This document shows positions 7,498 to 64,000 of a stretch of 64,000 nucleotides of DNA, one piece after another. The position numbers and the translations under genes were made by a program. The notes below the pieces were generated by a model. That model had not been told where the DNA came from. It made no database searches and saw nothing but the letters and a program-made list of their open reading frames with translations. This stretch comes from Pedobacter montanisoli. GTDB lineage: Bacteria; Bacteroidota; Bacteroidia; Sphingobacteriales; Sphingobacteriaceae. The stretch lies in contig NZ_JALGBH010000001.1 of NCBI RefSeq assembly GCF_022809115.1, forward strand, positions 1,488,001 to 1,552,000, read 5' to 3'. How positions within the stretch are numbered: position 1 is the first letter of the stretch; each line of letters starts with the position of its first letter.

Positions 7498-8658
7498 TTA
7501 TATTTTCTCCAAAGCCTGTTGTAAATCCTTAATTAAATATTCAGAATCTTCCAGACCAATATACACTCTGATCAGGATATGCCTTTGGTTTTCAGAATTA
7601 AAATCAGCTTTGCTAATCCCGGCACAAGCTGGAATTATTAAACTTTCATAGCCGCCCCATGATACCGCCATAGAGAAATGTTTCAGCTCATTGCAAAAAG
7701 CTTCAATTTGGTTAAGGCTACTTTCTTTTAAGGTAAAACTGAACAATCCCCCGCATTTCTTCATCTGTTTTTTTGCGAGCTCAACGGTTACATTATCTGG
7801 ATTAAAAGGATGAATAACCTGATCTATTTTAGGATGAGAGTTTAAGAAATGAATTACTTTTTCGGCTGTTGAACTGCTTTGCTCCAACCTGATAGGAAGG
7901 GTTCTCAATCCGCGTAAGATGAGCCAGGCATTTTGAGGCGACATAGAAGCGCCTATATTCATGTATTCTTTTTCAAAGATTTGTTTGATTAAGCTCTTTG
8001 TACCCGTAACTACTCCAGCTACAACATCACTGTGTCCGCTTAAGTATTTAGTGGCAGATTGCGCTACCAGATCAATGCCATAGCTAATGGGCTGCTGATA
8101 TAAGGGAGTGCAGTAGCTATTGTCAATCATGGTATAAATACCATGTTTTTTGGCAATTTTGGCAATGGCTTCCAGATCCTGTACATCAAAACTAAACGTA
8201 TTGGGCGATTCTAAGTAAATCAACTTGGTTTGTGAATTAATTGCCTGTTCAATGGCTTCAGTATGGCTACCGTCAACAAAAGTGGTTTTAATTCCAAATT
8301 TCGGGAGAAAATCATTGAACAGTTTTATGGTCCAGCTATATGGATTTTCAACACAAACAACCTCGTCGCCATTTTGCAGTAAAGCCAGTACAGGTATGGT
8401 TACAGCGGCAATGCCACTCCCAAAGACTAAGGCATCTTCTGCTCCGTCTAATGCAGCCAATTTCTTCCTCAGTATATCAATGGTAGGGTTAAAACCTCTC
8501 GAATATAAATTACCCTGATATTCATCCGAAAGGGCTTGTCTAAAAGCTTCTACTGTATCGAACTTAAAATTGCTTGTTTGTATAATGGGCGGAGCAATGG
8601 CGTTGAAATAGTTTTCCCTTTCTTCGCCTAGTTCGTTCAATATGTAAGAAATATCCAC
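7498..8658 (-). CDS. PLP-dependent trans-sulfuration enzyme (cystathionine synthase/lyase family)
   Basis: This 386-residue enzyme belongs to the Cys/Met metabolism PLP family, which includes cystathionine gamma-synthase, cystathionine lyases and methionine gamma-lyase. The PLP-binding lysine is K204 in SATKYLSGHSD. YSRGFNPT (52-59) holds the Tyr and Arg that contact the cofactor of the neighbouring subunit. LVFGSGIAAVT (77-87) lies in the cofactor-binding region and TMIDNSYCTPLYQQP (176-190) is the usual Asp-containing strand. The sequence alone does not decide between synthase and lyase. It is probably cytoplasmic and tetrameric. The amino acid permease gene lies just upstream on the same strand, with 41 bases between, and may be cotranscribed. 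Confidence 0.88.
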   Translation of the reverse strand: MDISYILNELGEERENYFNAIAPPIIQTSNFKFDTVEAFRQALSDEYQGNLYSRGFNPTIDILRKKLAALDGAEDALVFGSGIAAVTIPVLALLQNGDEVVCVENPYSWTIKLFNDFLPKFGIKTTFVDGSHTEAIEQAINSQTKLIYLESPNTFSFDVQDLEAIAKIAKKHGIYTMIDNSYCTPLYQQPISYGIDLVAQSATKYLSGHSDVVAGVVTGTKSLIKQIFEKEYMNIGASMSPQNAWLILRGLRTLPIRLEQSSSTAEKVIHFLNSHPKIDQVIHPFNPDNVTVELAKKQMKKCGGLFSFTLKESSLNQIEAFCNELKHFSMAVSWGGYESLIIPACAGISKADFNSENQRHILIRVYIGLEDSEYLIKDLQQALEKI

Positions 8659-10175: not shown

Positions 10176-10227
10176 CTTATAATGGTTAAATCTTTAGTTT
10201 TTCATCAAACTATAAAATCAAAACATA

Positions 10228-12108
10228 ATGGCTAATCCTGCATATAACGAAGATAGTATCAAATCACTCGACTGGCAAGAACATATTCGCCGTAGGCCGG
10301 GTATGTACATAGGCAAGCTGGGAGATGGTTCTGCACAGGATGATGGTATCTATGTTTTGCTGAAAGAAATTCTGGATAACTCCATTGATGAGTTTATGAT
10401 GGGTGCAGGACGTACAATAGATATTACTGTATCTGATCATAAAGTAAATGTACGTGATTACGGACGTGGCATTCCCTTGGGCAAAGTGATCGATTGTGTA
10501 TCAAAAATGAATACCGGCGGTAAATATGACAGTAGTGCGTTTCAGAAATCGGTAGGAATGAATGGGGTAGGAACAAAAGCAGTAAATGCCTTATCTACAA
10601 CTTTTATTGTGCAAAGCTATCGCGAAGGCAAAACCAAGAAAGTAGAATTCAGTAAAGGATTGATCACTACCGATCATCCTGAAGTTGAAACTACCCAGCG
10701 AAATGGTACAGCAATAACTTTTTATCCGGATGATAGCATCTTTAGAAATTACCATTATATCCCTGATTTTGTAGAGAGCATGATCTGGAATTATGTTTTC
10801 CTGAATACAGGTTTAACGATTAATTTCAACAATCAGAAATACTTCTCTGAACGTGGTTTATATGATTTGCTATCTCGTCAGAACAAGCCGGAAGAAATCC
10901 GTTACCCTATCATACACCTTAAAGGACACGATATTGAGGTAGCTATGACACACGGCCAGCAATATGGAGAAGAATACCATTCTTTTGTGAATGGGCAATA
11001 TACCACGCAAGGCGGAACACATCAGGCTGCATTTAGAGAAGCTGTAGTGAAAACAATTAGAGAGTACTACAATAAAGATTACGATGCATCAGACATCAGG
11101 GCTTCTATTATTGCTGCAATTGCCATTCGTGTGCAGGAACCTGTTTTCGAATCGCAAACCAAAACAAAACTGGGATCTGAAAGGGTAGCACCCGATGGTC
11201 AAACGGTGCGAACTTTTGTGAATGATTTCCTTAAAAAGGAATTAGATGACTATTTACATAAGCATAAAGATGTGGCAGATGCTATCGAGGCTCGTATCAA
11301 ACAATCTGAGCGTGAGCGTAAAGACATTGCAGGCATCAAGAAACTGGCTAATGAACGGGCAAAAAAAGCATCTTTACACAATAAGAAGTTAAGAGATTGT
11401 AAAATACATTTCAATTCTAATCACGATAGAAGATACGAAACAACCTTGTTTATTACGGAGGGTGATTCTGCTTCCGGATCTATCACTAAATCGAGAGATG
11501 TAGAAACCCAGGCAGTTTTTAGCTTAAAAGGTAAACCTTTAAATTGTTTTGAACTGACCAAGAAAGTGGTTTATGAAAATGAAGAGTTTAATCTTTTGCA
11601 ACATGCTTTAAATATAGAAGATGGACTTGAAAGTTTACATTACAATAATATCGTTATTGCTACCGATGCGGATGTGGATGGTATGCACATCCGATTGTTG
11701 ATGATGACTTTTTTTCTACAGTTTTTCCCCGATTTGGTTAAAGCCGGACACGTTTATATTTTGCAGACTCCACTGTTCAGAGTACGTAATAAAAAAGAAA
11801 CCATTTATTGCTATAGTGACGAAGAACGCAAGAATGCGATAGAGAAGCTGGGAGGCAAGCCCGAAATCACTCGTTTTAAAGGCTTAGGTGAGATCTCTCC
11901 TGATGAGTTTGGTATATTTATTGGTGACAATATTCGGCTGGATCCTGTGATTTTAAAAGAACAAACTATTAAAAGTCTTTTAGAATATTACATGGGAAAA
12001 AATACACCAGAAAGACAGCAGCATATCATCAGAAATTTGCGCATTGAGAAAGATGAAGCCGAGGAAGTGAGCAAAGCTGAAGCAGAAGAATTGGTATTAA
12101 ATGAATAA
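10228..12108 (+). CDS. parE: DNA topoisomerase IV subunit B
   Basis: This is the 626-residue ATPase subunit of a type IIA topoisomerase, which decatenates or relaxes DNA together with subunit A. It starts with [21 protein letters not shown], the GHKL ATP-binding entry. ILDNSIDEF (the Asn of the ATP site) follows near residue 45, and [15 protein letters not shown] near 109. The Toprim domain carries TEGDSASG (Glu411) and DADVDG (Asp480, 482 and 484), which bind the catalytic Mg2+. Length and the absence of a GyrB insert favour ParE over GyrB. The A subunit gene lies 34 kb away at 46.3 kb rather than next door. The histidine kinase gene follows after 65 bases. Confidence 0.9.
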
Positions 12109-12125
12109 TAATCTCTGCTTTATGT

Positions 12126-12152
12126 TATTTAAGATGATATGATGCTTAAATA
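12126..12152 (+). repeat. Small hairpin between parE and the histidine kinase gene
   Basis: TATTTAAG at 12126-12133 and its complement CTTAAATA at 12145-12152 form an 8-bp AT-only stem with an 11-base loop. There is no T-run after it, so it is a weak terminator at best. Confidence 0.3.
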
Positions 12153-12173
12153 AATCATTAAACTGAGATAAAA

Positions 12174-14291
12174 TTGTTTAACCATAAAAAGGGCGGTACG
12201 TTTCGTTACTGGTTAGTTGCACTACTTATTTTAACAATGCTGGTTTCTTCGATTTTCTTCTATCTGAAGAAAAAAAGAGTGCCCGCATTGATATCCCATT
12301 TAAAGGAACTTTGGCAAAATAAAACTGATTTTGCCGCTGTTGATTCATGTGTTGTTTTACTTTACAGAGCAGATAACGATTGCCGTTTGTACGAAGTTAC
12401 GGCTGATAAAAAATACATACAGAGCTTTAATAAAAAAATAGATACAATTTCAGGTATCATTGCCCGTATAGATACCAGTAATAATGGTAAACTGGCAGAT
12501 CTGTTTGAACAGAAAAAACAAAAAACAGCGCTTTATCTTAAACTCAAGACCCTTGCCGATAGTTTGGTTAAGGTTTCGGCAGGTATAGATACTGCAATTA
12601 GAACCGCCGAACCTAAAACTTATGGTGAGTTTAAATTTGGAAGATTTAAAACCATGGTTACGGTAGATACGATGAGAACTACCGTTCAGGAAAAAAACAG
12701 GAAAAAACTTCTTGGCCGCCTGGTTGATGCTTTTAAGGCTAAACGAAATCAGGATTCGCTCATAACATTTGTTCGTAAAGAGGTTAAGCTTGATACGGCA
12801 TTACAGAGTAAGCAGTATAATCTTGTTCATCTGAAAAGGATGAACAATTATTTCAGAAATCTGTACTCAAGAAAAAATCTTTTATCAAAAGCAGAACTTG
12901 AAATACTAGGTTTAAATACTACGATAATCAGAGATGTAGTAAAAACTTTAAAAAGTTTTAAAGCCAACGAAGTCATATTGCATGAGAAAACAGAAGAAAT
13001 CTTAAAAGATAATATAGATGCTAATATGAGTACAATAGATAAGCTTTATAGAATTGCTATCCTACTACTCTGCTTACTGGGCATCATTATACTCTATAAC
13101 CTTTTCAAAATTTATAAAAATGAAAAATACCTGATCGATTATACCAAAAAGGCTACGCAATATGCACAGTCTAAGAGCAGGTTCCTGGCCAATATGAGTC
13201 ATGAGATCAGAACACCTTTAAATTCGGTTATAGGCTTTTCAGAACAACTCATACAACAGGACCTTACACCTAAACAATCTGAACAGGTAAATGCTATACG
13301 TACCTCGTCTATTATGTTGTTGGATGTGGTAAATGATATTCTGGATTTTTCCAAATATGAAACGGGCAAAGTCAGCTTTGATGAAGTTGTTTTTAATCCG
13401 GCCGAATTGTTAAAAGAACTGATTAGCAGTATTTCTATACAAGCATCTGCAAAAGGATTAAAACTTGAAACCGCTATTACTTTTAATGATAGTATTAATC
13501 TTAAAGGAGATTCTTTAAGGTTAAAACAAGTGGTCATGAACTTGCTAAGTAACGCCATTAAGTTTACCGATCAGGGTTCAGTTACACTTAAAGCCGATAT
13601 TGTTGCGAGTGCAAAAAAACAGGAAATTTTAAAAATTCAGGTTGTTGATACTGGTGTTGGTATAGCACAGGAAGATATGTATATGATTTTTGAAGAGTTT
13701 GCACAGGTTTACTATTCTTCTTCTAAAGTAAAACAAAAAGGTACAGGTTTAGGTCTTGCCATATGTAAACGCATTATTGAATTACAAGGTGGAACAATCG
13801 GTGTGGAAAGCGAACTAGGAAAAGGATCTAACTTTTTCTTTGAAATAGGCTATGAATATGCTGAAGTAAAAGATTACCAGCAATTAAACATTATAGGTGT
13901 AGAGAACTTAAACCGTTTATCAGGAAAACGGGTGTTGCTGGCTGATGATAATAAAATGAATATTCTTTTGGCCGAAACTGTAATTAAGAAATATAACATC
14001 AATATTGATACTGCACTAGATGGCAAACAGGCCTTACATTTATTTGAGCATAACAATTACGATCTGGTTTTAACCGATATTCAGATGCCTGAGATGGGTG
14101 GTGTAGAGCTTACACAACGAATCAGAAAGCTGAAAAATAAAAGCAAATCATCTATTCATATCTTAGCCATAACGGCAAATGTATTGGAAGAAGATAGGAT
14201 TAAATATTTATCGTCTGGAATTAATGACTTAGTACTGAAACCATTTTCTGAAAAAGAATTAATGGATAAGATTACGAAGTATATTAATTAA
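12174..14291 (+). CDS. Membrane-bound hybrid sensor histidine kinase
   Basis: This 705-residue two-component protein combines sensor, kinase and receiver. A TTG at 12174 is used as start; the next in-frame ATG (12237) would remove most of the first transmembrane helix (12-31). A periplasmic region of about 260 residues, helical and without a recognised domain, runs to the second helix (about 293-312). HisKA follows with phospho-acceptor His343 in FLANMSHEIRTPL, and HATPase_c with NLLSNAIKFTD, DTGVGI and GTGLGLAI. The C-terminal receiver has ADDNKMN, phospho-acceptor Asp635 in LTDIQMPEMGG and the conserved Lys in LVLKPF. The signal is unknown. No separate response regulator or DNA-binding partner lies nearby, so an orphan phosphorelay is likely. 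Confidence 0.88.
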   Translation: MFNHKKGGTFRYWLVALLILTMLVSSIFFYLKKKRVPALISHLKELWQNKTDFAAVDSCVVLLYRADNDCRLYEVTADKKYIQSFNKKIDTISGIIARIDTSNNGKLADLFEQKKQKTALYLKLKTLADSLVKVSAGIDTAIRTAEPKTYGEFKFGRFKTMVTVDTMRTTVQEKNRKKLLGRLVDAFKAKRNQDSLITFVRKEVKLDTALQSKQYNLVHLKRMNNYFRNLYSRKNLLSKAELEILGLNTTIIRDVVKTLKSFKANEVILHEKTEEILKDNIDANMSTIDKLYRIAILLLCLLGIIILYNLFKIYKNEKYLIDYTKKATQYAQSKSRFLANMSHEIRTPLNSVIGFSEQLIQQDLTPKQSEQVNAIRTSSIMLLDVVNDILDFSKYETGKVSFDEVVFNPAELLKELISSISIQASAKGLKLETAITFNDSINLKGDSLRLKQVVMNLLSNAIKFTDQGSVTLKADIVASAKKQEILKIQVVDTGVGIAQEDMYMIFEEFAQVYYSSSKVKQKGTGLGLAICKRIIELQGGTIGVESELGKGSNFFFEIGYEYAEVKDYQQLNIIGVENLNRLSGKRVLLADDNKMNILLAETVIKKYNINIDTALDGKQALHLFEHNNYDLVLTDIQMPEMGGVELTQRIRKLKNKSKSSIHILAITANVLEEDRIKYLSSGINDLVLKPFSEKELMDKITKYIN

Positions 14292-14336
14292 AATTTCTGC
14301 TGATTAAGGAAAATAAATTAAAGACGGGTAAATCAC

Positions 14337-14714
14337 TTATCCTGCATTTTCATTTGCTTCAAAAATGCCAAAGGTATTATTGTCTGCATCTAAAAAATAA
14401 CCCTGCCAGCATTTGCCTGGTATGGCAAATTTAGGTAAAGCTACCTGGCCACCATTCTCTAAAATAAGCGTTGCGGTACGGTCAAAATTTTCTACCTGTA
14501 TAGAACAGGTATAGGCATTTGTTCCAGATGCTGTTGGTGGAAGAGCCGCAGGTCGTTTTAATAATCCTCCAGCAATTCCGTTGGTTTCTATCCGGTAATA
14601 TTCAATAGGTAAACCTTCCTGTTTAATAAAAACCCAGTTAAAAACACGCTGATAAAATTTAATCTCACGTGCCGGATCAGAAGATTGTATCTCAAAGTAA
14701 GCAATAGTATTCAT
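14337..14714 (-). CDS. VOC-superfamily (glyoxalase-like) protein
   Basis: This 125-residue protein has a vicinal oxygen chelate fold made of two beta-alpha-beta-beta-beta units. The N-terminal unit is AYFEIQSSDPAREIKFYQRVFNWVF (5-29) and the C-terminal one is CSIQVENFDRTATLILENGGQV followed by GYFLDADNNTFGIFEAN. The final Glu of GIFEAN is at the usual metal-ligand position. The N-terminal His ligand is replaced by Tyr or Phe, so enzymatic glyoxalase activity is not assured. Similar small VOC proteins are widespread and mostly uncharacterised. It is the last gene of the tamB operon, 8 bases after the yihY-like gene. Confidence 0.82.
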   Translation of the reverse strand: MNTIAYFEIQSSDPAREIKFYQRVFNWVFIKQEGLPIEYYRIETNGIAGGLLKRPAALPPTASGTNAYTCSIQVENFDRTATLILENGGQVALPKFAIPGKCWQGYFLDADNNTFGIFEANENAG

Positions 14715-14722
14715 TATGTCTT

Positions 14723-15721
14723 TTAGCTGTTTTTTACCGGTGTAATTTCTTCGGGGTGTTGAGGTGGCAGTTCTTTTACTTCTTTTTCTATTACTACCGT
14801 TTTTAAATGTACCGCATACTTTGAAGGGCTAATTCCCTTATCAAATTTTTCGGCATAAGCCTGAGTAAATTCTGCACCAAAATATAAAATTATGGAGGTG
14901 TAATATATCCATACTAAAATTACGATGATAGAGCTTGCAGCACCAAATGTAGAGCCAGGATTACCTTTTTCAATGTAAATTCCAATAAGATATTTGCCTA
15001 AGCTAAACAGTAATGCGGTAAAAAGTGCACCTACAATGGCCGACTTCCATTTCAGTTTTACATCTGGCAAAACTTTAAAGATCACCACAAATATGGTTGT
15101 GATTACAGCATAAGTTAAGATGTTGGTAATAATGAGCATAAGAAGTTCGGAAACCGAACCAATGCCTAATCGTCTTGCATAAATATCGAGCTTACCACCA
15201 ATAGCAACCACCACACTGTTAAGAATCAATGATACGAGTAGCAAAAAACCCAACGATGCAATGAGCGAAAAGGATAACAGCCTGTTAACGATAAATTTTA
15301 ACCAGCCTTTTTTAGGTATGGCCTTAACTTTCCAGATCAGGTTGATGCTATCTTGTATTTCTACAAAAATAGCCGATGAACCTATCAGTAAGGTAACGAT
15401 ACCAATGATTAAACCTAAAGTACTTCGTCCGCTAAGGTTGGCGTTGTTTACAAATGTTCTTAATTGACCTGTAGCTTGCATGCCTATAAGTTCACTGATT
15501 CCTTCAAATATTTTTGTGCCGGGGTCTAGATTATCACCCAAAAATAAAGTAACAGAAGAAAGAATAATGATGATGAGGGGGGTTAGAGAAAAGATGGTAT
15601 AATAGGCCAATGAAGCGCTTAATTTCATCACTCTATCATCAATAAAGCCTTGGCCTGCAGCAGCAAAAAGCTGGTACAGATTATGAAAAAATAACTTTAT
15701 CTTTCTAAATAGTCTCTTCAT
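14723..15721 (-). CDS. YihY/BrkB-family inner-membrane protein
   Basis: This 332-residue integral membrane protein belongs to the YihY/virulence factor BrkB family (once misnamed ribonuclease BN). It shows about six hydrophobic helices. The family signature LSASLAYYTIFSLTPLIIIILSS (34-56) comes first, then the helix pair of SLIASLGFLLLVSLILNSVVVAI, and the final helix IIVILVWIYYTSIILYFGAEFTQAYA (about 263-288), whose YxxxxxxxGAEFT motif is typical. The tail (about 300-332) is charged and Pro-rich. The family function is not established. It sits 4 bases downstream of the TamA-like gene in the same operon, so an envelope role is plausible. Confidence 0.88.
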   Translation of the reverse strand: MKRLFRKIKLFFHNLYQLFAAAGQGFIDDRVMKLSASLAYYTIFSLTPLIIIILSSVTLFLGDNLDPGTKIFEGISELIGMQATGQLRTFVNNANLSGRSTLGLIIGIVTLLIGSSAIFVEIQDSINLIWKVKAIPKKGWLKFIVNRLLSFSLIASLGFLLLVSLILNSVVVAIGGKLDIYARRLGIGSVSELLMLIITNILTYAVITTIFVVIFKVLPDVKLKWKSAIVGALFTALLFSLGKYLIGIYIEKGNPGSTFGAASSIIVILVWIYYTSIILYFGAEFTQAYAEKFDKGISPSKYAVHLKTVVIEKEVKELPPQHPEEITPVKNS

Positions 15722-59335: not shown

Positions 59336-61063
59336 TTATTCTCTGGTGATTATATAGTTTTCCAGCACCAGCATATCCATTTTAGTTCTTAAGAAACAAT
59401 CTAGCGCATGAGCCGGATGGTTTACAATAGGTTCATTTTCGTTAAAAGAAGTATTTAATAATACTGGAACATCCGTTTTTTCATAAAAACGATTGATTAA
59501 GCCGTAATATTTAGGTTCAATATGCTGATCTACAGTTTGCAGACGACCTGTGCCATCTACATGGGTAACTGCCGGAATAAGTACTTTTCTTTCTTCTTTT
59601 ATCTGAAATACCTTTTCCATGAAGGGTACATTATCTGTTTGTTCAAAATAAGTTTCAACATGCTCCTTTAAGATAGAAGGTGCAAAAGGTCTGAACGATT
59701 CGCGTCGTTTAATCTTGGCATTTAAAATATCTTTTGCGTCCGTGCGTCGTGGGTCTGCAATAATAGAACGATGACCTAAAGCTCTTGGGCCAAATTCTGC
59801 TCTGCCCTGAAACCAGCCTACTACACCTGCATTGATGAGACAATCGGTAACCCGGTCAAAAAGTTCATGATTTTCCAACTTTTCAAACTTTACATTTTTG
59901 TCAGACAGGAACTCCTTGATATCCTCATTATTGTACTGACTACCCAAATAACCATGTAACATGGGTTCGGTACGTGGCTGTTGTAACAAATGATTGTAAA
60001 CCCATAATGATGCACCTATGCAGGTACCAGCATCGTGTCCGGCAGGAGGGATGTATAATTGCTTAAAAGGTGTATTCAGTAATATCTTGCCATTAGCAAC
60101 CGAATTTTGTGCAACACCTCCGGCAATGCAAACAGAATCTAATCCTGTTTTTGTATGGAGATGTTTTAATAAATGAAAGATAATTTCTTCGGTAATACGT
60201 TGTATAGATGCAGCCCAGTCTTTATGATCTTGTGATAATGGTTCATCAGATCTGCGGGCAGGACCAAAATCCTTGATCAGCTCATCAGAAAATAAACTGT
60301 CCATCGCAGGTATGCCACCTTCCCATACCATATTTACACCTTTTGTGGGGTGATTAAAATATTTTAAGTTCAGCTCGAAAAGCCCATTATCTGTAGCTTT
60401 AATAGCTTCTCTTAATTTTTCTACATATTTAGGTTTACCATAAGGAGCAAGACCCATTACTTTGTACTCATCGCCATAATGAGGAAAACCCAGCCATTGC
60501 GTAAAAGTGGTATAAAAAACACCTATAGAATGGGGATAAGAAACGGTTTCAAGTACTTTGATCTGATTGTCATTTCCTATACCAGTCATTGTACTGGTGA
60601 AATCTCCAAAGCCATCAATAGAAAGCAATGCCGCTTTTGAATACGGAGAAGCAAAAAATGCACTGGCTAAATGGCTACGATGATGTTCTACATTATGTAT
60701 TTGCGCTTTAAGCTGCTGAGGTTCAATGTTAAAATGATTGCAGAATTCGTCGGTTATGGAAGCTGCCTTTTTTAAATTTTTTACGCGGTTAAGCATATTG
60801 CTTATGCTTAACCTATTTTTAAGTGCTGTAAAAACTTTACGGCTAAAATTGGCTTTGGGATCTCTTGAAATAGCAATATGATCTACATCTGTAATTCTAA
60901 TTCCAGCTTCGTCTAAGCAAAACTGAATGGCCTGAGATGGAAAACCCGCCCAATGTTTGATGCGTCTGAAACGTTCTTCTTCTGCCGCTGCTATGAGTGT
61001 GCCATTTTGATATATACAGGCAGAAGAGTCGCCATGATAAGCATTAATTCCCAGGATGTACAT
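59336..61063 (-). CDS. Carbamoyltransferase (NodU/TobZ family)
   Basis: This 575-residue O-carbamoyltransferase transfers a carbamoyl group from carbamoyl phosphate via carbamoyl-AMP to a sugar or other hydroxyl. The N-terminus MYILGINAYHGDSSACIYQNGTLIAAAEEERFRRIKHWAGFPSQAI is the Kae1-like fold. HNVEHHRSHLASAFFASPY (about 122-140) is the His metal site. The C-terminal YrdC-like part has GWFQGRAEFGPRALGHRSIIADPRR and PVLLNTSFNENEPIVNHPAHAL. Relatives modify Nod factors, antibiotics and, in some Bacteroidota loci, exopolysaccharides. It overlaps the exosortase frame by 20 bases, so it belongs to the same operon. Confidence 0.9.
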   Translation of the reverse strand: MYILGINAYHGDSSACIYQNGTLIAAAEEERFRRIKHWAGFPSQAIQFCLDEAGIRITDVDHIAISRDPKANFSRKVFTALKNRLSISNMLNRVKNLKKAASITDEFCNHFNIEPQQLKAQIHNVEHHRSHLASAFFASPYSKAALLSIDGFGDFTSTMTGIGNDNQIKVLETVSYPHSIGVFYTTFTQWLGFPHYGDEYKVMGLAPYGKPKYVEKLREAIKATDNGLFELNLKYFNHPTKGVNMVWEGGIPAMDSLFSDELIKDFGPARRSDEPLSQDHKDWAASIQRITEEIIFHLLKHLHTKTGLDSVCIAGGVAQNSVANGKILLNTPFKQLYIPPAGHDAGTCIGASLWVYNHLLQQPRTEPMLHGYLGSQYNNEDIKEFLSDKNVKFEKLENHELFDRVTDCLINAGVVGWFQGRAEFGPRALGHRSIIADPRRTDAKDILNAKIKRRESFRPFAPSILKEHVETYFEQTDNVPFMEKVFQIKEERKVLIPAVTHVDGTGRLQTVDQHIEPKYYGLINRFYEKTDVPVLLNTSFNENEPIVNHPAHALDCFLRTKMDMLVLENYIITRE

Positions 61064-61625
61064 TACTTTTTTTATTTTCTTTTAACCAGAACCAAATCAT
61101 TAAAATAATTACCAAATATGCAAAAATGTTATATAAATCATGATGCAGATCGGCATGTTGTCTAACTGTTTTAAACCTGCTGAATATGAAGCCAACCAAA
61201 GCAATGCGTATAACGTTGGTTAAGATAATGATCAGCGTACCAGCCAGAATAAAATATAATTTCTTTTTTACTGTTTTATAAGGATAGGCAATTACAAAAG
61301 CCCAAAAAGACGTAATGATACCCATGCCATAACAAGAGTAACCTACATTTACCCATACTCCTCTGCTTATTTTAATACTATCGTGATAAACAAAATTATC
61401 AACTCCGAACAGGTGAAGCATGCCACTGGCACTTTTTAAAAGTATTTGTTGCAGCCAATGAGGGTAATTCAAGTAATGATCAAGAAAAGGGCTGTAATAT
61501 CCTCCTCCTTTATTAACCAGACCAATGTAGAAGTAGTTAAAACGATATAGAGCAAAGGCTAAAACCACAAAACTTAAGGCAAAAAACCATGGTTTCTTAT
61601 AAATAAGTTTTAGTTTGCTGGTCAT
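61044..61625 (-). CDS. Exosortase-family protein (XrtY-like)
   Basis: This 193-residue integral membrane protein has the exosortase triad: Cys98 in NVGYSCYGMGIITSF (C-x-G motif), Arg140 in TNVIRIALVG, and His161/His162 in HHDLYNIFAYLV. The layout matches short exosortases of roughly 180-190 residues, with about five hydrophobic segments. Exosortases are thought to cleave and anchor proteins with a PEP-CTERM-like C-terminal signal, usually in exopolysaccharide loci. From memory, this subfamily resembles exosortase Y of Sphingobacteriaceae, but that subtype is unverified. No substrate with a sorting signal is in the window. It is cotranscribed with a carbamoyltransferase and glycosyltransferases. 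Confidence 0.8.
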   Translation of the reverse strand: MTSKLKLIYKKPWFFALSFVVLAFALYRFNYFYIGLVNKGGGYYSPFLDHYLNYPHWLQQILLKSASGMLHLFGVDNFVYHDSIKISRGVWVNVGYSCYGMGIITSFWAFVIAYPYKTVKKKLYFILAGTLIIILTNVIRIALVGFIFSRFKTVRQHADLHHDLYNIFAYLVIILMIWFWLKENKKSNVHPGN

Positions 61626-61658
61626 AGGAACAAAATTAATAAAGTTCTGTAAAGCAAG

Positions 61659-62522
61659 TTAATTAAAAGGGCGAGCTTTTTTCTTTAGCTCGCTAATTTT
61701 TATATCAATAACTAATCTGAACCAGAAGCCTTGCAGGTAATGGAAAATGAAGCCTGTTTTGCCATCTAAAAAACCCAGCTTAATAAAGTAACGGTAAAAA
61801 AAGTATAAAAACGGGCGGATATATAGAGGCATTTTCCACCATATGTTTTTTAGATATGCAATTTTCTGATTGGGGTCTCCAAATAATGAAGGTTCTGTGG
61901 CTGATTGTTTTATGGTTTGTAACCGTTCAAACTCTTCAAGGGCAACAAGTGTACTATATCTGTTGTGTTTGGCTATCCAAAACTCAATATCGTTTTCTTT
62001 AAGATTTTCTTCTATGATATGACCATCTTTCCATGTCATGGTTTTTCCCGGAACTACAAATCTGTGATCCATATTTTCATTCAGGTCAGAATAACCCACG
62101 TTAAACTTGAACATTTTTAACAGATATTTTGGATAATAGCCACCATATTTGATCCATTTACCTTTAAAAATATTTTTACGGTTAAAATAAATGCCGTTGA
62201 TTGCTTCATAATCCTTACTCTTAAAACTTTGTAAACGTTTAAAAAGTTCTGGAGTAACAATCTGATCGGCATCTAAACCTATTACCCAAGGGGTTTGAAC
62301 TGAAAAGTTATTTAAAGCAAAATGCCATTGTTTAGGATGATTAGTAAAAGCATATTGCTGTACTGTTGCACCATAAGTTTCGGCAATCTGCAGGGTATTA
62401 TCTTTACTGCCTGAATCCAGAATAAAAACAGCAGCTTCTAATCCTTTTATGGAATCAAGTAAACGGGGTAAATGTTGTTCTTCGTTAAAAGTAAGTATAA
62501 TGAAGCTAAACTCGGTATTCAC
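61659..62522 (-). CDS. Family 2 glycosyltransferase (WaaE-like)
   Basis: This 287-residue GT-A transferase begins at a GTG (62522) that overlaps the TGA of the methyltransferase gene (GTGA); a longer frame from an ATG at 62576 adds 18 non-conserved residues. The product starts VNTEFSFIILTFNEEQHLPRLLDSI, then FILDSGSKDNTLQIAETYGATVQQYAF, and holds GLDADQIVTPELF (D-x-D metal site). WIKYGGYYPKYLLKMFKFNVGY and TWKDGHIIEENLK follow the pattern of WaaE-like enzymes that add a sugar to a glycan core. It is 33 bases upstream of the exosortase gene and is probably part of the same operon. Confidence 0.85.
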   Translation of the reverse strand: MNTEFSFIILTFNEEQHLPRLLDSIKGLEAAVFILDSGSKDNTLQIAETYGATVQQYAFTNHPKQWHFALNNFSVQTPWVIGLDADQIVTPELFKRLQSFKSKDYEAINGIYFNRKNIFKGKWIKYGGYYPKYLLKMFKFNVGYSDLNENMDHRFVVPGKTMTWKDGHIIEENLKENDIEFWIAKHNRYSTLVALEEFERLQTIKQSATEPSLFGDPNQKIAYLKNIWWKMPLYIRPFLYFFYRYFIKLGFLDGKTGFIFHYLQGFWFRLVIDIKISELKKKARPFN

Positions 62523-63142
62523 GCTATTGTTGCTCTTATAACCATTGATTTCCAAAGATAAGGAAAACGGCCACATCCTTTAAAATGGGTAACCTGGAAG
62601 CCCTGTTCCTTAAGCAGAGCCGTAAGCGTTTTTCTTGACCAGATCTTGATATGACCTCCATCCCAAAGGGGATTAATATGACTATCCATTTTGTTGGTAA
62701 GCGCAATGGTAAGGTTTTTTAGATAACCATGATAAGGCGTAGATAAAATGAATTCGCCACCACCGTTTTTTAAGAGAATTTTTTTTGCAAAAGATACAAA
62801 GGTTCTGGGTGCATATAAATGCTCAATTACTTCTGTTGAAACAATGGTTTTAAAAGGCATATTCTGTATCTGTGCAGGAAGCAGTTCAGAGCTTAAATCC
62901 TGAATAAAAAAACGATCAGGATTAATCTGATTAGCCAGCTTTATTCCCTGTTCTGAAGCATCCGTTCCATATACATCAAAACCATTTTTAATTAACTCAT
63001 TGGCAAAAGAACCGTTGCCACATCCCAGATCTAAAACCGGTGTTTTTTTAGTACTTATAAGGTTTACTATGGGCATTAAAAGATAATTGTGTGTATGGCT
63101 GTTTTCGTTATTGTGAAAACCGTAGTCTTTATACTCTGACAT
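62519..63142 (-). CDS. Class I SAM-dependent methyltransferase
   Basis: This 207-residue methyltransferase has the UbiG-like Rossmann pattern: motif I VLDLGCGNGSFANELIKNGFDVYGTDASEQGIKLA (about 37-71), motif II near QDLSSELLP, and FKTIVSTEVIEHLYAPRTFVSFAKKILLKNGGGEFILSTPYHGYLKNL (about 98-145). Methylation of a sugar or lipid is likely from its setting between two glycosyltransferases, but the acceptor is unknown. The next gene starts at a GTGA overlap, showing translational coupling. No membrane segment. Confidence 0.85.
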   Translation of the reverse strand: MSEYKDYGFHNNENSHTHNYLLMPIVNLISTKKTPVLDLGCGNGSFANELIKNGFDVYGTDASEQGIKLANQINPDRFFIQDLSSELLPAQIQNMPFKTIVSTEVIEHLYAPRTFVSFAKKILLKNGGGEFILSTPYHGYLKNLTIALTNKMDSHINPLWDGGHIKIWSRKTLTALLKEQGFQVTHFKGCGRFPYLWKSMVIRATIA

Positions 63143-63153
63143 AGAATATCTGG

Positions 63154-64000
63154 TTAATAGGTTGTTAGGTCGTGGTACAGGCTAATATACTGATTTACCA
63201 GTAGATCAGTATCGAAATCTTTTTTAATTGTTTCTGGTGCATTTTGCCTGATATGATTGCGTTTATCCTTACTTTGAAATGCTTCTTCTAAACCCTGCGC
63301 AATCTCATTAGGATGATGTTTACAGACCCAACCCATATTATTTTGTAAAATATAATCAGCCAATCCAACTTCTTTTGAAACTAAAACAGGCGTACCAACA
63401 CTTAAGGCTTCTATGATAACATTAGCAAAGTTCTCATTAAAAGAAGTTAATACCAGCAAATCATGATTGGCCATGATTTCAAATTTTTTATCGCCGTTAA
63501 CATAACCTATCCATTTAATATGATGAGCTATGTTTAGATCTTGGGCATATTTTTTTAGCATTTCTAGATACTGCTCTTCTCCGCTCCCGGCGATACTAAG
63601 TTCCCAGTTAAAATCCAGTTTACTTAAACTTTCAAATAATATTTCAAGTCCTTTTTTCTGTTCAATCCTTGACAAGAATAACAGCCGGAAAGAATGAGAG
63701 TAGGGAGGGGCCTCTTTAAGAGCTAAATGACTTAACTTAACGAAATTAGGAATTACGTTTATACTTTTAGTGGTACAGGTTTCTTTAATATCTGTCTGCT
63801 CCTTAAAACTGGTGGCGTGTATGTAAGTGTAGTTTAACAATTTTTTACCTATACCTGAGTGTATAAGCTTTTTAGGCAAAGAATTTTTATTGCTGGTTGT
63901 ATAGTGGTTTAACATCCCTCTTGGTGAAAGGATCACCGGAACTTTATGCATTTTAGCTAACCAGCATGATAGTATGGAAACTAAATTCCACCAGGCATGA
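63154..64000 (-). CDS. GT-B glycosyltransferase (5' end outside window)
   Basis: The frame is open from 63154 to the right edge and continues upstream of its first internal ATG at 63951 (HAWWNLVSILSCWLAKMHKVPVILSPRGMLNHY), so the start is outside the window and the part seen is 281 codons. It is a GT4-type protein: LLFLSRIEQKKGLEILFESL, WELSIAGSGEEQYLEML, and LVLTSFNENFANVIIEALSVGTPVLVSKEVGLADYI, with the E-N-F-A-N-V-x-x-E variant of the EX7E motif. It is 11 bases upstream of the methyltransferase gene and likely part of the same polysaccharide operon. Donor and acceptor unknown. Confidence 0.85.
   Translation of the reverse strand, partial: HAWWNLVSILSCWLAKMHKVPVILSPRGMLNHYTTSNKNSLPKKLIHSGIGKKLLNYTYIHATSFKEQTDIKETCTTKSINVIPNFVKLSHLALKEAPPYSHSFRLLFLSRIEQKKGLEILFESLSKLDFNWELSIAGSGEEQYLEMLKKYAQDLNIAHHIKWIGYVNGDKKFEIMANHDLLVLTSFNENFANVIIEALSVGTPVLVSKEVGLADYILQNNMGWVCKHHPNEIAQGLEEAFQSKDKRNHIRQNAPETIKKDFDTDLLVNQYISLYHDLTTY

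Follow-up and report, generated by a model that had tools for sequence, protein, structure and literature searches.

What does a small exosortase-like membrane protein do in a gene cluster for a surface polysaccharide? The question is raised by the end of a 64,000-nucleotide stretch of DNA, called the window here (G000:C1:1488001-1552000, from a 3.29 Mb genome in three contigs; G and L numbers are our handles for genomes and loci), where a minus-strand gene at 61044..61625 encodes a candidate exosortase of 193 residues next to genes for a carbamoyltransferase and a glycosyltransferase. We consider it likely that the window closes within the 3' part of an exopolysaccharide locus of Wzy type, carried by a Pedobacter-like bacterium with a divergent exosortase of the XrtY type, and that this enzyme would cut small secreted proteins and join them to the polysaccharide coat. 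The observations behind this answer are the gene content, the protein families, the conserved residues, the fusion of XrtY to a family 2 glycosyltransferase (GT2) in relatives, the co-occurrence of exosortases with proteins carrying a C-terminal sorting signal (CTERM), and the pairing of such proteins with cargo of the type IX secretion system (T9SS).

The exosortase and its glycosyltransferase partner

An earlier note on this DNA had assigned the 61044..61625 product to the exosortases from a Cys, Asn-x-x-Arg and His triad. The assignment holds, as the protein scores above the curated cut-offs of the superfamily models TIGR04178 (47.3 bits against 23) and PF09721 (45.8 against 25.7), and C98, R140 (within N137-x-x-R140) and H162 are invariant in 35/35 aligned sequences, as are N137, G102 and Y170. 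Judged by its sequence, it is a real exosortase, and the other refuting outcome named in the note, a different family with a triad that varies among homologues, did not come about. Among the specific models, XrtY (NF046083) fits best with 129.9 bits, followed by XrtX (65.1 against a cut-off of 170), while XrtF (TIGR04128, 40 against 90) and XrtA/EpsH (34.7 against 208) are far from being reached. Because 129.9 lies under the NF046083 cut-off of 160, the protein is XrtY-like and not a member by NCBI's rule. Its closest named relative, and the sole one from a search for related loci, is an exosortase with 88% identity on a contig of a Pedobacter metagenome-assembled genome (UBA1951, L005). The two share a long branch of the XrtY tree and group with G023, G043 and G024 (support 92/77), all of which have a carbamoyltransferase. 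Profile searches found no second exosortase in the window's genome, and comparison of XrtY with solved structures by sequence gave no credible match (one at E 0.2).

Directly upstream of the exosortase lies the gene of a GT2 glycosyltransferase (61659..62522, minus strand, GTG start at 62522; PF00535, 50.7 bits), and this neighborhood recurs widely. In a survey of 301 genomes of the family, 140 have an NF046083 match at E≤0.001, 113 of them above the cut-off; these 140 exosortase-positive genomes include about ten whose only match is nearer XrtX. We read 132 exosortase loci, comprising the window, L005 and 130 places in 128 family genomes (two each in G048 and G157), some of them as stretches of only 3.5 kb. 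GT2 is fused to XrtY in one open reading frame (ORF) in 27 loci and lies directly upstream in a further 98 (94 by script and four by eye, in G140, G170, G242 and G185, all with extended or broken exosortase frames), so that it is fused or adjacent in 125/132. The window's GT2 is 65% identical to the N-terminal half of fusions such as L039:7964-9400; in the majority of fusions read, identity to the corresponding protein of the window is ~54-67% for the GT2 half and ~29-41% for the XrtY half. An AlphaFold 2 model of the L039 fusion (mean pLDDT 93, pTM 0.74) matches GT-A glycosyltransferases over residues 1-277, with ThuS (7msk) at Z 18.8 and 2.9 Å over 201 residues, a structure look-up that covers the GT2 half.

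Some loci depart from this pattern. At L058 (G025) 7721-8284, an XrtY-like gene stands without the usual GT2, the preceding gene being deaminase-like by eye. More than one exosortase place is present in G048, G151, G157, G204 and G288, and exosortase frames contain internal stops or are split at G242:C30:19591-20102 and G185:C29:155509-156025.

CTERM proteins that accompany the exosortase

CTERM-type proteins follow the distribution of the exosortase in the 301 genomes of the family. The window's genome matches the PID_CTERM model NF046080 at one place only at E≤1 (G000:C1:414542-414616, 46.7 bits against 26), and it therefore does hold a sorting signal of the PEP-CTERM-like or equivalent kind, whose absence the earlier note had named as grounds for giving up its reading. 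In the mini-protein encoded there, a signal peptide is followed by GFPCPDPDEPCDPDDVNVPFDGG, a hydrophobic helix and a basic end; the part between signal peptide and helix consists of an acidic segment of ~17 residues rich in proline and cysteine, then VPFDGG. Its frame opens 106 bases after a giant ORF (1961 residues read) whose only Pfam match is a T9SS sorting tail.

In general, only a few per cent of genes encode a T9SS sorting tail. Among 69 CTERM loci fetched and examined, a script extracted mini-proteins in 55, and those of two more (L227 and L229) were read by eye; a same-strand upstream ORF of at least 150 residues was scanned for 48 of these 57. The type A tail (TIGR04183, E≤0.001) was present in 41/48 upstream neighbors; the seven without it include five related genomes (G100, G105, G125, G287 and G296) with another protein upstream. 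The true lengths of these partners in other genomes are mostly cut off by the short stretches.

When the family is divided by exosortase content, NF046080 matches 42/140 exosortase-positive and 2/161 exosortase-free genomes (p=1e-13, a value that overstates independence, as the genomes are related, which applies to all our counts). Our model A1, a widened alignment of 27 C termini used at E≤0.001, matches 76/140 against 3/161, and 52/116 against 3/161 when its 24 seed genomes are left out. The A1 misses gather in one clade of the XrtY tree, which has 42 rows, mostly from the window's genus, and holds most of the top XrtY scores.

A second model, A5 (the 'PLDTW' model), was searched in the 42 genomes of this clade, in G242 and G185 (broken copies), in G128 (a neighbor) and in 12 exosortase-free genomes, and led to proteins of ~120-190 residues, often encoded in tandem. 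These proteins, which we call GC-CTERM, have a signal peptide, a Gly-Cys pair, two more conserved cysteines, C-P-[LI]-D or a close variant, a helix and a basic end. The Gly-Cys pair follows soon after the signal peptide, at residue 21-39, in 32/33 extracted ORFs, with 13% expected by composition; of the further cysteines, one is invariant and the other is present in at least 90%. Several arrays adjoin a Wza-like gene by eye (L246, L247, L253, L254 and L256), and most of these candidates lie towards the wza end of the locus. Four GC-type proteins that were scanned had no NCBIfam match at E≤1 and Pfam matches only far below cut-off, and the modeled ectodomain (AlphaFold 2; pLDDT 77, pTM 0.56) had no PDB match at E≤0.001.

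Model A6, derived from 21 GC-CTERM C termini of 13 exosortase-positive genomes and used at E≤0.01, matches 45/45 genomes of this XrtY group (32 of them not seeds; G236, G263 and G284 with matches weaker than 0.001) and 0/34 exosortase-free genomes, 13 of these from the same genus, the seeds having been chosen from matches in exosortase-positive genomes. At least 35 of the 45 have a listed A6 match on the xrtY contig at a distance of at most 60 kb from the gene, and in at least 33 the nearest listed match lies 22-48 kb away. NF046080 matches 0/45 of the same genomes, on which ground PID_CTERM as the sole XrtY signal was rejected. The window's genome has no GC-CTERM protein by A6, and none between its Wza-like gene and the next genes. 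A5 was also run on the 21 exosortase-positive genomes still without a match, while A5 and A6 together cover part of the 161 exosortase-free genomes. By one model or another, a candidate is present at E≤0.001 in 125/140 exosortase-positive genomes, and different XrtY clades go with different kinds of motif.

XrtX was considered as the PID-CTERM enzyme here and rejected, since no XrtX match lies above cut-off in the 301 genomes and the window's genome has one exosortase. XrtX-like genes do stand directly beside a PID_CTERM gene at G048:C6:44723-45335, G204:C45:15120-15782 and G075:C29:11606-12418, and a second XrtY-like gene adjoins one at G157:C31:16334-17040.

Proposed working and rival explanations

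Proposals for XrtA and ArtA hold that the CTERM helix anchors an exported protein while a cysteine enzyme cuts near the motif and passes the new C terminus on (PMC1569441, PMC7157517). By analogy, a small precursor, in the window's genome the one PID-CTERM protein, would be exported by Sec and held in the membrane by its C-terminal helix. XrtY, as a polytopic Cys/Arg/His transpeptidase, would cut at the P-x-D motif and move the new C terminus to an acceptor that belongs to the polysaccharide pathway; this would probably be a lipid-linked sugar, which the partner GT2 helps to build. We favor a glycolipid or lipid-linked glycan as acceptor because the enzyme that normally accompanies XrtY, and is fused to it in a fifth of the loci, is a GT-A glycosyltransferase. 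For Haloferax, a phospholipid that partner enzymes make has been proposed as the acceptor (PMC7157517), and in Porphyromonas T9SS cargo is joined to a sugar, with amino-acid-modified sugars speculated to be exosortase acceptors (PMC7468200). Once processed, the peptide would become part of the polysaccharide or of the outer surface, and there it may serve the giant protein that is exported by T9SS and whose gene immediately precedes its own.

Besides the relatedness of the genomes, the choice of the A6 seeds and the XrtY score under NCBI's cut-off, several points weigh against this working. The mini-protein gene lies 1.1 Mb from the exosortase gene, and for that reason the pairing of the two rests on co-occurrence. 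At E≤0.001, 15/140 exosortase-positive genomes have no candidate, and matches occur in the exosortase-free genomes G034, G133 and G281 (A1) and G123 and G212 (A5), the G212 match (L250) being a 45-codon frame and no credible protein. Two of the 76 A1-positive genomes (G209 and G245) count through 38-codon frames without a signal peptide, probably remnants. GT2 is absent beside the exosortase in 7/132 loci, and its adjacency elsewhere is partly expected, given how many glycosyltransferases exopolysaccharide loci contain; the fusions carry more weight as evidence.

How the carbamoyltransferase fits this working depends on its distribution. Encoded at 59336..61063 on the minus strand, it belongs to the NodU/CmcH/TobZ superfamily and contains both Pfam domains of the O-carbamoyltransferases (PF02543, 204.7 bits; PF16861, 232.8 bits), which it shares with NovN, GdmN, TobZ and NodU. 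It matches the NovN and GdmN structures over its full length and TobZ in two stretches, whereas its score with the NodU equivalog model stays far below the cut-off (NF041651, 134.9 against 1000). Directly downstream of xrtY, this slot holds a carbamoyltransferase in 18/132 loci and a WcaF-like hexapeptide acyltransferase in 97/132, and the two occur together in none of the 132 stretches read. The carbamoyltransferase rows are scattered over separate parts of the XrtY tree, and the slot has therefore probably been refilled more than once. We lean, by a little, towards regarding the gene as a replaceable exopolysaccharide tailoring gene that is uninformative on protein anchoring, which is compatible with our preferred explanation. 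Speaking for a closer tie, the xrtY-linked enzymes make up a single subfamily (62-94% identity to the window's enzyme in 17 other genomes or contigs, where the end of the stretch truncates some of them; a paralogue elsewhere in the window's genome has 37%), even though the adjoining XrtYs that were aligned, UBA1951 left out, are only 26-37% identical to the window's XrtY; moreover, the gene overlaps xrtY in the window by 20 bases (61044-61063).

Most likely, the enzyme modifies a sugar of the same polysaccharide, with a predicted carbamoylated product, and its gene occupies the slot held by the acyltransferase in most relatives. Of the carbamoylated surface glycan tied to protein anchoring that the earlier note had suggested, the link to a surface polysaccharide and to protein sorting stands, while carbamoylation as the defining feature was rejected, the gene being a minority occupant interchangeable with an acyltransferase. 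The data do not support an exosortase system dedicated to carbamoylated glycans.

The working can be drawn more sharply, in a form that we put forward tentatively and think rather unlikely to be right in all its parts. XrtY would be a protein-to-glycan ligase that caps a polysaccharide or a lipid-linked unit with ribosomal peptides, on an acceptor made by the fused or neighboring GT2. In genomes of the window's type, peptides of <40 residues would form the anchoring part of a surface protein in two halves, paired with the large T9SS-exported protein encoded just upstream, and the largest Pedobacter clade would supply its cysteine-rich GC-CTERM arrays.

Could XrtY and GT2 instead form a membrane enzyme that modifies or transfers glycans, with the CTERM proteins as incidental products of the same loci? 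The fusions in 27 loci, with the identities given above for their two halves, would suit such an enzyme. On the other hand, CTERM proteins go with the exosortase even if their genes lie in another part of the genome, and their motifs differ between XrtY clades; moreover, disruption of EpsH in Methylobacillus left methanolan production unaffected (PMC1569441); we judge the idea improbable. Less probable still is that PID-CTERM is an ordinary membrane-anchored small protein or the substrate of another protease, its correlation with XrtY reflecting shared ancestry of exopolysaccharide lineages: the related genomes are not independent and the genes are unlinked in the window's genome, but within the window's genus a candidate at E≤0.001 is present in 52/56 genomes with XrtY, the 13 XrtY-free ones give only a weak match in G281 (a 59-codon frame) and the doubtful frame in G212, with none by A6, and the motif shifts with the XrtY clade.

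Known systems and the surrounding locus

The system proposed here, with XrtY as a sorting enzyme, is of a kind already known, since exosortase, Wzy, XYAG1 (the XrtY-associated glycosyltransferase) and PID_CTERM all have NCBIfam models. With the NCBIfam XrtY group (NF046083, NF046084 and NF046085) the window's locus shares the same neighbors above cut-off (Wzy, 623.9 bits; XYAG1, 421.5 bits) and the same small Cys/Arg/His exosortase, but its exosortase falls short in score and sits on the long branch with UBA1951. The single CTERM protein of the window's genome fits the PID-CTERM domain, whereas the large XrtY group has instead the 'GC...CP[LI]D' proteins outside that model's reach. PEP-CTERM/EpsH (XrtA) likewise combines an exosortase in an exopolysaccharide locus with motif-helix-basic C termini paired by co-occurrence (PMC1569441); here, however, the candidate substrates are very small or tandem and cysteine-rich, and a GT2 fusion takes the place of the EpsI extension. 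The Haloferax archaeosortase A is also a cysteine enzyme, linked to C-terminal processing and lipid attachment (PMC7157517), but its partners are PssA and PssD, while the usual partner here is a glycosyltransferase.

Among the matches listed from the open-licence literature, we found no published substrate for XrtY, a group of the Bacteroidota, no GT2-exosortase fusion, no pairing of XrtY with PID-CTERM or GC-CTERM arrays, and neither the pairing of CTERM and T9SS proteins nor the exchange of carbamoyl- and acyltransferase; NCBI's model notes may already state part of this. The GT2 fusion offers a clue to the exosortase acceptor in bacteria. Our data also give candidate substrates genome by genome, including a kind unnamed by any database model tried, and connect sorting by exosortases with the type IX system. 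The acceptor would be accessible to mass spectrometry in Pedobacter strains that have a single exosortase and a single mini-substrate, a peptide of <40 residues. Elsewhere, XrtF of Flavobacterium is reported to have a role in colonization and biofilm (PMC10936215), and in Nostoc cyanoexosortase B is reported as essential to both motility and biofilm (PMC12188702).

The minus-strand unit reads, 5' to 3', XYAG1, methyltransferase, GT2, exosortase and carbamoyltransferase. On re-check, the ORF coordinates and overlaps reported by the earlier note are all real, as is its single unit of at least five genes running past 64000. XYAG1, a GT4 enzyme, is present with its 3' part (63154..64000, minus strand), which scores 421.5 bits with NF046085 against a cut-off of 400 even though truncated; its start lies at about genome position 1552311, and an ATP-grasp gene follows 32 bases further upstream in the adjoining DNA. 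The class I S-adenosylmethionine-dependent methyltransferase (62519..63142, minus strand; PF13489, 72.4 bits) has a homologue with 55-58% identity in the same slot in relatives such as L040-L044 and L046. It meets GT2 in a GTGA stop-start at 62519-62522, which gives a GT2 of 287 residues whose start matches those of its relatives. The ATP-grasp ligase gene upstream of XYAG1 is seen both in the window's genome (L002:845-1924) and in UBA1951 (L005:40-1146).

The earlier note had placed the polymerase, the flippase and the sorted substrate out of view; the XrtY-associated Wzy has now been found 9 kb from the exosortase gene (NF046084, genome 1558686-1560125, 623.9 bits against 420) and the candidate substrate at its distant site, both indeed outside the window. 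Three genes unrelated to exopolysaccharide (by eye, a permease, a peptidase and a PAS kinase) stand between the xrtY unit and Wzy in the window's genome. The locus extends over ~34 kb, and its far end, ~31-34 kb from the exosortase gene, holds a Wzc-like autokinase (TIGR01007, 158.4 against 108), an UpxY antiterminator (159.8 against 100) and a Wza-like lipoprotein, named by eye and without an NCBIfam match at 1e-10.

Several side observations concern such loci. Within the Wzy-type locus, L003:1403-8040 encodes two Wzt-type ABC-transporter ATPases and an ABC-2 permease (by eye), and two export routes may therefore coexist. The XrtY-associated Wzy is above cut-off in two genomes without an exosortase match (G176:C43:189542-190939 and G006:C11:775353-776765). 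Wzy frames have internal stops or are split in G100, G135, G188 and G260, while the Wzy-like gene is present in two or three tandem copies at L049 (G210) 10195-14973 and also in G056, G011 and G031.

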